From Bdellovibrio bacteriovorus (GTDB taxonomy: Bacteria; Bdellovibrionota; Bdellovibrionia; Bdellovibrionales; Bdellovibrionaceae), in the NCBI RefSeq assembly GCF_001592735.1, contig NZ_LUKE01000001.1, positions 682,001 through 746,000 of the forward strand: a DNA stretch of 64,000 bases. The letters run 5' to 3'. Of the stretch, positions 1,804-48,172 are shown piece by piece. Both the position numbers and the translations under genes were made by a program. Positions within the stretch are counted from its first letter, which is position 1, and the number at the start of each line of letters is the position of its first letter. The notes under the pieces are model-generated. The model made no database searches. It saw nothing but the letters and a program-made list of their open reading frames with translations, and was not told where the DNA came from.

Positions 1804-1836
1804 ATAAAAAGAGCTCCTAACGGGAGCTCTTTTTAT
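1804..1836. terminator. bidirectional Rho-independent terminator embedded in a coding end
   Basis: A 14-bp perfect stem (1804-1817 with 1823-1836) with a 5-nt loop and A/T-rich outer arms can work in both directions between the TetR gene and the convergent transglycosylase gene. The last codons of the minus-strand gene (Lys-Lys-Ser-Ser-Arg) form one arm and its stop codon begins at the edge of the loop. Confidence 0.9.
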
Positions 1837-3019
1837 TTGTATTACTGTCATCCATCGCAATCGTTCGATCCTTCCGAGCCAACGACACCAAAGCCACATT
1901 ATATCGATCTTTAGGAACCGCCACGATTGTTTTTGCCGGGATCGTTCCTTTGCGCGCTTTCATCGTCAAATGCGGATTGAAGATTTGAACTTTACGATCA
2001 TCCCCATCAAACCAGGTGAGCAAATCCTTGTAACGAATTCCCACCGGAAGTTTTAGGTCTTGAGCTTCTAATTTTTTTGACCAAGCCACGGATTCGCCAA
2101 AATATTTTCCCGCATTTCTTTCAACCTCTAAAGCCGCTAAAAAACAAGCATAGAAGTTTCTAGAAGCGAAACCAAAACTGCGGCGGGACTTCACATTTTC
2201 AATCAACTCGTTTAAATCACGCGTTTTATAAGAGCGGGTCATTTTCATCACACCCGTCGGTCCGTGATTATAACCCGTGACCGCAAGCGGCCAGGACTCA
2301 AGCATGTTAAAATTGCTGCGTAAAAGACGAGCCGCAAAACGGGTCGCTTCGAGAGGATGATTTCTTTTATCCACCGTGGGCGAAATCATACGATAAGGAC
2401 GAGCCGTGTAAGGCATGATTTGCCAGATACCACTGGCACCTACTTTAGAGCGTGCCATGATATTGAAAGAGCTCTCCACAAAAGCCAAACGTGTCAGCTC
2501 GATCGGCAAGCCCGCTTCGGCAAAAATCTTTTCCATGTCTTCCAGGTAGCGACCAGAGTAAAAAATAGCATCTTGCATGCGATCTTTTTGACCCAGCTGA
2601 AAACGCAGACGCTCTTTTTCTTCTTTTGTAAGACGTAAAGCGACTTCTTTTTTAGCCTGATCCATACGACGCTGTTTTTGACGGTCTGATTTATAGTCGC
2701 TTAAATCCACAACTTCATAGACAATCTCGACATCTTCGGCATCATGAAGAACACCTTGATTGGTCGTGTATTTGGAATAGATGTCCACCCAAAACTGAAC
2801 CTTCTTTTCCATCCCTGCCGGAATGGCAAAAGCATCACTGGTATAACCTAACGTTTTTTCTTGAGCGTTGAAATTAGGAGCTCGCCAAGGACGCATCTCT
2901 TGGGGACTGCGACGAATAATTTGCGGCACGACTTGATCGGCAATATTGGGCTCTTGCGCTAAACTGAGCGAAGTCGCCGTCAACATGATCGACAAGATAG
3001 AGAACATCACAATCTTCAT
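1817..3019 (-). CDS. membrane-bound lytic murein transglycosylase, MltD/SLT type (GH23)
   Basis: Likely a peptidoglycan-cleaving lytic transglycosylase acting in the periplasm. An SLT/GH23 domain at about residues 165-300 has the catalytic Glu in FVESSFN, followed by SKVGASGIWQIMP and YNHGP, the standard GH23 motifs. I chose the ATG at 3019 because AGGAAA lies just upstream and a signal peptide (ending SLAQ) follows at once; upstream in-frame starts lack this. Unlike E. coli MltD no clear LysM repeats follow, although a short basic tail may be a remnant. It lies 40 bp downstream of the PBP4-type gene and probably forms a wall-remodelling operon with it. Confidence 0.88.
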   Translation of the reverse strand: MKIVMFSILSIMLTATSLSLAQEPNIADQVVPQIIRRSPQEMRPWRAPNFNAQEKTLGYTSDAFAIPAGMEKKVQFWVDIYSKYTTNQGVLHDAEDVEIVYEVVDLSDYKSDRQKQRRMDQAKKEVALRLTKEEKERLRFQLGQKDRMQDAIFYSGRYLEDMEKIFAEAGLPIELTRLAFVESSFNIMARSKVGASGIWQIMPYTARPYRMISPTVDKRNHPLEATRFAARLLRSNFNMLESWPLAVTGYNHGPTGVMKMTRSYKTRDLNELIENVKSRRSFGFASRNFYACFLAALEVERNAGKYFGESVAWSKKLEAQDLKLPVGIRYKDLLTWFDGDDRKVQIFNPHLTMKARKGTIPAKTIVAVPKDRYNVALVSLARKDRTIAMDDSNTNKKSSR

Positions 3020-3059
3020 TATTTTTCCTATTTCCGTTAAGCTTTTTGCCACCATCCAT

Positions 3060-4502
3060 CTATTTTACTAGATAGATTAATAAATTATCAAAAAACGCGC
3101 GAATCTTTGTTTCATCCGTAGACCCATTATATATGAATGAGAAAGTGATAACTCTACCATCTTCCAAACCCGCATAACCGGCCAATGAAACCACGCCCGT
3201 TAAAAATCCCGTTTTGGCACGCACCCAGCGCTCCCCGGGAGTATTCTTCATACGCTTTTTTAGCGTTCCGTCCACTCCGGCAATCGGCAAAGAGGTGAGA
3301 AACTCCGGCTGCACCTTGAAGTCGTTTCGTAAGTGCTGCAAGACCTTCCACATCGCAAATGCCGACATCTTATTATCACGCGACAGCCCTGAAGGTGAAT
3401 TCAGCCTGTATTGTTCCGATGGCACACCTAAACTTTGCATATGCTCACTAATAATCGCAACACCTTCAGCCAAAGTGGCACCCTTGGCTTTTTTCACCGT
3501 GCCCAGATTTTTCGTGAGCATCTCTGCCACATAGTTGTTAGAGAATTTATTCATGTCCGCGACCATCTGCTCGATGGGCTTACTTTCAGATTCTGCTAAA
3601 ACTTCGGCCTTCTCTGGTGAGACACCGTTTTTAATCTTACCAGTTAATTGGATTCCTCTTTGAGCTAAAAAAGATTTTAAATTATAACCCGCCCAAAGAT
3701 CAGGTTGCGTGATATTCTTAAAAACAACCGCCTCTTTCAGCCCTTTGCCGATGCTGCCGCCCACCGTGATCACATCGCCGTCGATTTTCTGAGTTTCTTG
3801 GCGATCCACCAAAAGTTTATTTTCATTACCGCCACCAGTTTTGGCACGATTATTTAGCTTTATATAGTCATTTTCAGGATCCACAAAAACTTCCGCCGCA
3901 CTTCCTGGTGTCGTAGGACGCACAAAGATATTCACGGAGTTCCAGTTAAAGCTCATGGCCCCGACCGGCGCATCATAAGCACGGTCCACGCGCTCTTTTT
4001 GTCGACTAAGGTCGTAACGGACGTTGTCGAAAAGAGAGTCATCAACAATGATGTCCCCTTCAATCTTCGTGATTTTATTTCGCATAAATGCGTTCACCAA
4101 AAACCAAAGATTTTCAGAAACAAACGAAGGATCCCCACCACCTTTAAGATACAAAGGACCTTTTAATACTCCGTTCACAATGTTGGCATCCGCCAAAAGC
4201 TGCGTCTTAAATTTATGTCCCGGAGGAAAAGCCCCTAGCACCGCCGAAGCCGTCGCGACCTTAGAGATGGATGCCGGAATCATCAAAGCCTTGCCATTCA
4301 CATCCAAAAGCACGCGAAGATTATCACCTTCACCGACAGTGGCATGCATCCCCACATCATCAATCTTCACCCCATGCTTCTTAGCGAGCGCCGCAAATTC
4401 CTTCTGAACCGAAGCAAACTTGTCATTGTCACTTTTTGCCGATTGCGCGGAAGAAACAGAAGCAACCAAAAGTACACCTGAAATAATAACTTTAAGGAAC
4501 AT
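3060..4502 (-). CDS. dacB: D-alanyl-D-alanine carboxypeptidase/endopeptidase, PBP4 type (peptidase S13)
   Basis: This 480-residue periplasmic serine peptidase trims or cuts peptide stems and crosslinks of peptidoglycan. The three penicillin-binding motifs are visible: SxxK as PASISKVA, SxN as FSNNYV, and KTG as RAKTGFL. The long insert between the first two motifs is typical of the S13 family. The ATG at 4502 is preceded by GGGAGG at ideal spacing and followed by a signal peptide ending in SSAQSA. It is followed by a lytic transglycosylase. Predatory bacteria are known to use DacB-type enzymes to reshape prey wall, but a housekeeping role is equally possible here. Confidence 0.93.
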   Translation of the reverse strand: MFLKVIISGVLLVASVSSAQSAKSDNDKFASVQKEFAALAKKHGVKIDDVGMHATVGEGDNLRVLLDVNGKALMIPASISKVATASAVLGAFPPGHKFKTQLLADANIVNGVLKGPLYLKGGGDPSFVSENLWFLVNAFMRNKITKIEGDIIVDDSLFDNVRYDLSRQKERVDRAYDAPVGAMSFNWNSVNIFVRPTTPGSAAEVFVDPENDYIKLNNRAKTGGGNENKLLVDRQETQKIDGDVITVGGSIGKGLKEAVVFKNITQPDLWAGYNLKSFLAQRGIQLTGKIKNGVSPEKAEVLAESESKPIEQMVADMNKFSNNYVAEMLTKNLGTVKKAKGATLAEGVAIISEHMQSLGVPSEQYRLNSPSGLSRDNKMSAFAMWKVLQHLRNDFKVQPEFLTSLPIAGVDGTLKKRMKNTPGERWVRAKTGFLTGVVSLAGYAGLEDGRVITFSFIYNGSTDETKIRAFFDNLLIYLVK

Positions 4503-4523
4503 GCGACCTCCCAGTGAGAACAT

Positions 4524-4607: not shown

Positions 4608-5543
4608 ATGAAAAAACGCGAATGGCTGATAGTAATTCTTCCTCTCCTCATCACCTGGGCTCTCGACCGCGTGACGAAAATCTGGGCAACGGGACTGACC
4701 GAGATCAAATCATTCGGTTCACTTCACTTTGTTCTGCACCATAATCACGGCGCGATGTTAGGCCTGTTTTCAGATCTTCCTTCGGTCTTGCGTATCGTAT
4801 CTCTCTCAACCGGTGGCGCGTTTTTACTTTGCACATATGCTTTGATTCAGTACTTGTTACCGATAAAATCACTCACTTTGCGCACGGGCTTATCCATCCT
4901 TATTGGCGGGATCATCGGAAACGTCGCGGATCGTATCATTTGGGGCTATGTCGTTGATTTCATCGTCTTAGGAACTCCCAGCCTCTCCAGTCCCGCGTTC
5001 AATGTGGCCGATGCTTTGCAATGGGTGGGCTATATCTTGATCGTCTATGCGATCATTCGCGAAGGTGATTTACTGTGGCCGGAAAATAACGTGCGTAAGC
5101 GTTATTGGGTGAATCTCTCATTTCAAATAAAATACTGTCTGATTTTGATGGGTGTGGGACTAAGTCTTACATTGATCTGTTTGGTCTTTTCATACACTTA
5201 CATGCGCGTGACAATTCAAGAATTGGTAGGCAACAATCCTTTCTTGCTGAATAAATTCTTAGTCCCTTATGTCATTACTTTCGTCATTATCTGTATCGCG
5301 TTCTGCGCAATCTTGTTTGCCGTCGGTCGTATCATTTCGCACCGTATTGCAGGACCGCTTTATGCCTTTGAAAGATTTTTAAAAGAATCCCTGGATGGAA
5401 CGGCCAGACCTTTAAAATTGCGTGCCGGAGATGAGTTTTTACATCTGGAAGAGCTTGCCGAACAAATTCACTTAAGACTTCAAGAAATCAAGAACGAACG
5501 CACGGTGAACGTGGTTGAATATAAAGGGGAAGATGAAGGCTAA
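4608..5543 (+). CDS. signal peptidase II-like (LspA) domain fused to a two-TM HAMP module
   Basis: Residues 1-160 match lipoprotein signal peptidase: four membrane segments, an N-terminal LDRVTK motif, HNHGAMLGL (the NxGA motif), and the two catalytic aspartates in GNVADRI (D108) and FNVADAL (D135). Ordinary LspA ends here. This protein adds two more membrane helices (about 175-200 and 220-245) and a HAMP-type linker with the 'IAGPLYAFERFL...DEFLHLEELAEQI' pattern, ending in a short acidic tail at 311 residues. The fusion suggests lipoprotein cleavage, or a paralogue of it, tied to a transmembrane signal. A main lspA is probably elsewhere. It converges on a chemoreceptor gene. Confidence 0.85.
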   Translation: MKKREWLIVILPLLITWALDRVTKIWATGLTEIKSFGSLHFVLHHNHGAMLGLFSDLPSVLRIVSLSTGGAFLLCTYALIQYLLPIKSLTLRTGLSILIGGIIGNVADRIIWGYVVDFIVLGTPSLSSPAFNVADALQWVGYILIVYAIIREGDLLWPENNVRKRYWVNLSFQIKYCLILMGVGLSLTLICLVFSYTYMRVTIQELVGNNPFLLNKFLVPYVITFVIICIAFCAILFAVGRIISHRIAGPLYAFERFLKESLDGTARPLKLRAGDEFLHLEELAEQIHLRLQEIKNERTVNVVEYKGEDEG

Positions 5544-46975: not shown

Positions 46976-48172
46976 ATGAAACTTCAGATCCTGGCATGGA
47001 CCGCAATGGCGGGTCTTTCTCTATTTGCATTTCAAAACTGCGGCGGCGGGTTTGAAGCCATTCCTGGTACGACACTCTCTTCATCTCTTGGGAATTCTGA
47101 TCTAAGCAACGAAACTTCCAATCCGTCCCCTGCACCCGTACGCACCACGTTTTTCTTTGGCCGCTCTGCCGGCATTGATGGTATCGAGCTCAACTCGCAA
47201 ACAAGTCAGGTCACTGAACTTGGCAGCAGCGTTTTTCAAGGCAGTCATGTTGGATGGTTCGGGTTTGATGAGAGCACGAAAACTCTGCTAGCGGCCGAAG
47301 AGGGAACTAGTCGGCGTCTGCAGACTTATACCTATAATACAAATTCACAAACTTTAACCAGCCGAGATCTATTTGCCATTGCGGCTTCAACGGTGCATTT
47401 AACTCTGCTTAAAACTGTTCAAGAGGTTTTTCTATTTGGGTCTTCTTATGACCAAGGACGTTTAGATTCATATAAGTTAAACAACGACTTAACCACGATC
47501 GAAAATGCTCAGAATATTTCTTTCGGCTCCTCCGCCAAGGCCCATTCCAGCGCCTTTGATCCGCGCCGTAATTTATTATTTGTGGCGACGTTGGGTTTAA
47601 ATAGAATCTCGATATATCGATTTGATCGTATTAACGGTCTTACGGCTGCGGGGCAAGTCACCGTCAATGCGCCCAGGACTGTCGTTTACGACTCCACCTA
47701 TGACAAACTTTATGTAGCGACCGAGGCGAGTTCTGGCAACAGCGCTATTTACGCCTATGCCATCATTGAAAATAATGGCAGCTATTCGTTGAGCAATGTG
47801 GGTTCAGTTTCAATGCCGTTGCGAGGGGCCGATTTAAAAGTCAATCACGCGTTTGGGTATGTAATGGCTACGGCTCGACAAAGTGGACAAGAAGCTATTT
47901 GGGGAATGCCGGTCACCGAGCAAGGTGTTCAGGATCATTTACGCCCGAACTTTAGCATTCCTATTTCACAAGTTGAACCACGATCCTTAGAACTTTCCGC
48001 GGACGGACGCTTTGCGATTGTTGCTATGAATTCGTCGGGAAGCGCAAATGTTCTGGTATACGCCTTAAACTTTACAAACGACAAAAGCTTTCTTTCAAGT
48101 CAGATTATATGGTCAAAGCGATTTGGAAACTATGGGATCGTTTCCTCTATCGCGATACCCGCAAATCAATAA
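46976..48172 (+). CDS. lipoprotein with a 7-bladed beta-propeller (lactonase/YncE-like)
   Basis: The 398-residue protein has a lipoprotein signal with the lipobox AFQNC (Cys about 22), then GGGFEAIPG. The body is a propeller of YncE/6-phosphogluconolactonase type, with repeated 'D...N.LFVATLG.NRISIYRFD', 'YDKLYVATEA' and 'LELSADGRFAIVA' blades. A true lactonase activity is not implied: such propellers are often only binding folds. It is probably on the outer membrane. Confidence 0.8.
   Translation: MKLQILAWTAMAGLSLFAFQNCGGGFEAIPGTTLSSSLGNSDLSNETSNPSPAPVRTTFFFGRSAGIDGIELNSQTSQVTELGSSVFQGSHVGWFGFDESTKTLLAAEEGTSRRLQTYTYNTNSQTLTSRDLFAIAASTVHLTLLKTVQEVFLFGSSYDQGRLDSYKLNNDLTTIENAQNISFGSSAKAHSSAFDPRRNLLFVATLGLNRISIYRFDRINGLTAAGQVTVNAPRTVVYDSTYDKLYVATEASSGNSAIYAYAIIENNGSYSLSNVGSVSMPLRGADLKVNHAFGYVMATARQSGQEAIWGMPVTEQGVQDHLRPNFSIPISQVEPRSLELSADGRFAIVAMNSSGSANVLVYALNFTNDKSFLSSQIIWSKRFGNYGIVSSIAIPANQ

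Follow-up and report, generated by a model that had tools for sequence, protein, structure and literature searches.

Signal peptidase II (LspA) is usually regarded as one general housekeeping enzyme that reads one lipobox, and the locus described here raises the question of what a second LspA, joined to two further membrane helices and a HAMP domain, does in a cell that also harbors the canonical enzyme. The gene lies at 4608 to 5543 on the forward strand of the window, the 64,000-nucleotide stretch of Bdellovibrio bacteriovorus DNA analyzed here, and encodes 311 amino acids from an ATG start, as supported by its open reading frame, Pfam, alignment, and conservation in the family. The source genome (G000) is a Bdellovibrio-type assembly of 3.93 Mb in 9 contigs, and it does contain a canonical lspA (168 aa), located on the same contig ~94 kb beyond the fusion gene. 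Judging from sequence comparisons, we estimate with a probability of roughly 0.6 that the gene encodes a specialized signal peptidase II for lipoproteins with an aromatic-polar-polar-Cys box, with the HAMP domain serving as a dimerizing or gating module.

The LspA-2TM-HAMP architecture of this open reading frame is nearly certain. The Peptidase_A8 (LspA) domain (PF01252) matches residues 14-150 (4647 to 5057, forward strand; 8.2e-24, 84.9 bits vs a cut-off of 25), and sequence reading and the tree alignment place both catalytic aspartates, which the earlier note had reported as kept, in their expected contexts. D108 (codon 4929-4931) lies within N-x-x-D-R, in the motif N105-V-A-D108-R109 (4920 to 4934, forward strand), and D135 (codon 5010-5012) lies within F-N-x-A-D, in the motif F131-N132-V-A134-D135, which together with the clade signature Q138-W139 occupies 4998 to 5024 on the same strand. 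The LspA residues D20, K24, N46, G48, N105, R109, and N132 are also retained in the alignment. An AlphaFold model (19 sequences, moderate mean pLDDT of 68.5) places four LspA helices and beta strands at the N-terminal side, and Foldseek found that the first half best resembles the PDB LspA structures 6RYP, 5DIR, and 6RYO (E down to 2e-6), so that model and PDB matches both indicate the four-helix LspA fold. The fused enzyme is probably an active signal peptidase II. Because its score against the TIGR00077 lspA equivalog model is 47.2 bits, under the cut-off of 73.95, it is not filed as a canonical LspA equivalog.

Following the LspA part, the model contains two long helices (170-207 and 211-263), and a linker connects these to a final helix at 279-309. 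Both the model and the alignment support an added pair of transmembrane helices joined by a short periplasmic loop (approximately residues 170-240; 5115 to 5327, forward strand), and these helices are directly followed by the helix-linker-helix layout of a HAMP domain (approximately residues 241-299; 5328 to 5504, forward strand), with the landmarks S244-H-R-I-A-G-P-L, L271-R272, and D275-E-F. The added helix pair and HAMP-like linker had been proposed at the outset, and both stand, although the fused module is called HAMP by homology only, since none of the fused proteins matches PF00672 directly in Pfam. The homology comes from free-standing 2TM-HAMP proteins (150-200 aa) that occur throughout the phylum; of six tested, five match PF00672 over the same 'SHRIAGPL...LR.GDEF' segment (7e-9 to 4e-6, all above the cut-off). 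These homologs rule out a generic coiled coil, which the earlier note had raised as the other way to read this segment. The free-standing proteins have in common an FQ-L/I/F-R/K-Y/F start, SHRIAGP, and GDEF, and in a joint alignment the fused proteins retain S-H-R-x-A-G-P as well as L-R-x-G-D-E-F, whereas the F-N-x-M with which ordinary HAMP domains end has been lost from them and is kept in the unfused proteins. A sequence search of the C-terminal half against the PDB returned chance matches only. The source genome itself encodes a free-standing homolog of the module, of 140 aa (L025; C2:145680-146000).

The module most likely brings about dimerization of the enzyme or its coupling to a partner, and it may also act as a gate. 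Dimerization or partner docking through HAMP seems likelier than classical sensing, as the added helices are joined by a short loop and the protein has no output domain behind HAMP, whether kinase, chemoreceptor, or cyclase. The suggestion of a regulated or non-canonical lipoprotein peptidase in the earlier note therefore fares differently in its two halves. The non-canonical half is well supported, as the gene is a conserved paralog beside a canonical lspA, retains the full catalytic machinery, and is linked to lipoproteins with an unusual lipobox, as described below. Regulation through HAMP is plausible but unproven, given the short loop and the lack of both a sensor domain and an output domain after HAMP.

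The fusion, first described as unusual, is no one-genome curiosity. A canonical short lspA is encoded in each of the 53 complete genomes examined from this family, and 52 of them encode one copy in a frame of ~310-450 aa, the exception being G040; across the order, every sampled genome but one (G193) has a fused copy. All 20 long matches that were read, from the order and several other families of the phylum, are LspA-2TM-HAMP fusions; this distribution was established within the phylum, and a scan of genome contigs detected close relatives only. Recurrence in dozens of independent assemblies rules out an assembly error or unrecognized frameshift as the source of the gene. In a tree of LspA domains, all fused copies (61/61) form one clade with a support of 0.999, within which one short, probably truncated copy is nested, and as read from the sequences the fusion clade is ancient within one phylum. 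The catalytic aspartates, the asparagine positions, and the lysine are conserved at 97-100% in this clade, while R109 is conserved at 89% and is otherwise mostly Lys. The signature Q138-W139, three and four positions past the second catalytic aspartate, takes the place of I-V/M in canonical copies, and Leu replaces their Tyr immediately before the N46 motif. The fused proteins thus have in common with known signal peptidase II (Peptidase_A8, PF01252; 5DIR, 6RYO) the fold, the catalytic aspartate pair, and the surrounding conserved residues, but differ in the added 2TM-HAMP module, the separate clade, the Q-W pair, the sub-cut-off TIGR00077 score, and the Asn, Gln, or His found at position -1 of the proposed substrates. 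Copy number also varies: some genera, g14 (e.g., G036-G046) among them, have a third, short LspA copy, and in G133 (9 contigs, 93% complete; L127, L128) both LspA copies are HAMP fusions and a canonical copy was not found.

Extra LspA copies in producers of LspA inhibitors have been suggested to confer resistance, and a diverged second LspA beside the canonical one could be read in the same manner, as protection against globomycin- or myxovirescin-type compounds. We regard this as very improbable, as the fused copies form one clade conserved across the phylum, they lie beside genes for the cell wall and for lipoproteins and not in antibiotic clusters, and they have a candidate substrate class linked to them.

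This candidate substrate class is defined by its lipobox. The canonical lipobox is [LVI][ASTVI][GAS]C (PMC10920655; similarly PMC8689077), and in a 464-kb sample every lipoprotein predicted by our simple home-made rule set, from which lipoprotein statistics were drawn on samples of ~0.2 to 0.46 Mb per genome, ends in either [GAS]C or FQNC. The FQNC DNA pattern occurs 34 times in the source genome, with 15 occurrences at signal-peptide ends in long open reading frames, one inside a cytosolic-looking protein, and the remainder in short or non-coding frames; thus, of the 16 matches in frames >150 aa, 15 coincide with the end of a signal peptide. Among the encoded proteins are DUF1592/DUF1588 cytochrome-type proteins, a von Willebrand A-like protein, and a beta-propeller; several others have no known domains. 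One proposed substrate lies in the window at 46976 to 48172 on the forward strand, a predicted FQNC lipoprotein (Cys22) with a Lactonase-type beta-propeller (PF10282, 9e-25). B. bacteriovorus strain kdesi has eight FQNC signal peptides. A hydrophobic residue at +5/+6 is present in 13 of 15 FQNC proteins vs 7 of 20 canonical ones, in a post hoc comparison (Fisher p 0.005). The FQNC genes are scattered in genomes of the order. Since some of these proteins have a common mature N-terminus, duplication may account for the spread of part of the class.

In a count of the FQNC pattern with hydrophobic surroundings across 192 genomes, with the reversed motif rather than a matched codon model as the control and no correction for genome relatedness, the 62 genomes of the order contained 681 matches vs 60 for the control (median 10 vs 1), with at least 4 matches in 58 of them. 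This approximately tenfold excess contrasts with near-control counts elsewhere: the other 130 genomes contained 153 matches vs 117 for the control, and the outside matches that were read fall in non-coding or short frames, bar two in fusion-bearing genomes (one in G134, the other in a short ORF of G174). Counts of a DNA pattern miss variants. The one order member without the fusion, G193, has no FQNC signal peptides. G065 has a single one, and G143 has no FQNC match despite an intact-looking fusion. G059, an apparent counter-example with six FQNC matches and no fusion, was set aside, as all six belong to a single repeat located close to contig starts and none is part of a signal peptide. There are likewise no FQNC signal peptides in G210, whose fusion (C4; L073) has lost the second catalytic aspartate, with FNLAV for F-N-x-A-D; this is a reduced genome, and the protein is possibly a pseudoenzyme.

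That G210 retains the protein at all after losing this residue, and that HAMP forms the C-terminal, cytoplasmic end of the protein, would fit a sensor-type function, in which the LspA part detects a substrate or inhibitor and signals through HAMP to a cytoplasmic partner, for instance under envelope stress. However, the catalytic residues are retained in nearly all copies, no kinase, chemoreceptor, or cyclase follows to carry a signal onward, and the loss of the aspartate in G210 coincides with the absence of FQNC proteins, and we consider such a function unlikely.

The linkage between the fusion and non-canonical lipoboxes takes a different form in f14, another family of the phylum, where the genes adjoining the fusion encode hydrophobic signals that end in YNQC, FTQC, FNHC, YTHC, or YNNC and not in a canonical box. 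The pattern [FY][NT][QHN]C is present in 25 of 25 readable N-termini from two gene families adjoining the fusion (14 genomes, 11 genera), three further members with truncated starts being left out of this count. Four [GAS]C lipoproteins in these loci sit away from the fusion-adjoining cluster. In a 400-kb sample of G093, only two of 32 predicted lipoproteins carry [FY]x[QNH]C, and both adjoin the fusion; sampling of G107, which does not have the fusion, detected no such lipoproteins. The fusions of several f14 genomes (G130, G192, G136, G211, G196, and G209) do not adjoin this gene cluster. Where the cluster is conserved (L130, L131, L132, L267-L283), it comprises a secreted CxxCH protein, two lipoproteins with a non-canonical box, and a Tat-signal-like protein, and it gave no Pfam matches in the one genome tested.

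As residues -3 to -1 vanish on cleavage, a conserved FQN must be read by Sec, Lgt, or the signal peptidase, and its conservation in a segment that cleavage removes points to recognition at or before that step. The fused LspA is suggested as the reader by linkage in one family together with co-occurrence in a second, and it appears fairly probable that this enzyme prefers the FQNC-type box. Lgt could also be the reader, since most genomes have two Lgt genes, including G107, which has no fusion; this same uncoupling from the fusion argues against duplicated Lgt as the sole explanation, although a second Lgt could contribute. The second Lgt of the source genome (C6:198775-199740; L356:5623-6813) has a longer frame (~396 aa vs ~260) that is typical of the order, and it is a candidate partner of LspA-HAMP.

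The duplicated Lgt also bears on a plainer account, in which the fused enzyme is a redundant or conditional general signal peptidase II that cleaves the same substrates as canonical LspA, HAMP tunes only the timing, and FQNC is read by canonical LspA or by either Lgt. An FLNC lipobox is known in Bacteroidota (PMC10920655), so a dedicated enzyme may not be needed for Asn at -1, and G143 keeps its fusion without FQNC. Fused copies may also serve ordinary substrates, given that G133 apparently has only fused LspA and yet its sampled lipoproteins have canonical boxes. We nonetheless find a purely general role doubtful, as it leaves unexplained the order-wide co-occurrence of the fusion with FQNC, the absence of FQNC signal peptides in both G193 and G210, and the 25 of 25 non-canonical boxes adjoining the fusion in f14.

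For a specialized peptidase, the proposed sequence of events is that Lgt would lipidate the cysteine, the fused LspA would cut before it at a preferred box, FQNC in the Bdellovibrio order and [FY][NT][QHN]C in f14, and the mature lipoprotein, such as the DUF1592/DUF1588 cytochrome-like, von Willebrand A-like, and beta-propeller proteins, would be released, while the 2TM-HAMP module would most likely provide dimerization or partner coupling and possibly gate the peptidase. That the fused LspA travels with a class of FQNC-like lipoproteins suggests a separate, dedicated maturation line for them in Bdellovibrio and many relatives. If true, the pairing of a paralog with a distinct lipobox in the same cell would mean that cleavage is a step at which bacteria can sort lipoproteins. 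More tentatively, the predatory bacteria of this phylum may operate a second, HAMP-gated maturation line that has its own FQNC-type cleavage code and possibly supplies a distinct group of envelope or surface lipoproteins for the predatory life cycle. Some studied Bdellovibrio lipobox proteins, which need not belong to the FQNC class, act at the prey interface (PMC11003981, PMC10127604, PMC7511926).

Lipoproteins with boxes outside the consensus have been described before, such as CIM-1 of Bacteroidota, with its FLNC box (PMC10920655), and Ycf48 (PMC8038367), but those papers concern single proteins, whereas the present case ties an entire class sharing one motif to a single LspA paralog. We found no description of an LspA-HAMP fusion or of a Bdellovibrio FQNC lipobox in the open-license papers searched, and the new element is that the fused LspA has a probable class of substrates, the FQNC-type lipoproteins. 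The motif also provides a practical rule for Bdellovibrio lipoproteins that a search with the canonical lipobox would miss, and the role of the fusion is a single-gene question that is clearly testable in the predator.

In the Bdellovibrio order, adjacency alone fails to explain the gene, as its neighbors are on the opposite strand or have a canonical box. The most conserved neighbor is a divergent dacB-like (PBP4) gene for a D-Ala-D-Ala carboxypeptidase (3060 to 4523, reverse strand), followed by a lytic-transglycosylase-like gene (1817 to 3055, reverse strand), both functions being assigned by resemblance. A conserved operon partner was considered and rejected, since these genes on the other strand are chiefly what recurs, and in some genomes the fusion is adjoined by a gene for a family-5 solute-binding lipoprotein whose box is canonical. 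A plasmid search returned zero matches. In other members of the phylum, the fused frame itself is extended: in L066 (G207) and L072 (G161), it continues stop-free into a downstream secreted protein bearing CxxCH, which has its own gene in a relative (L132), and in G063 (L129:4427-5878, reverse strand), LspA-HAMP carries an extra C-terminal AhpC/TSA-redoxin domain (9e-10) and adjoins a gene for a DUF4331 protein with a signal peptide ending in LQNC.
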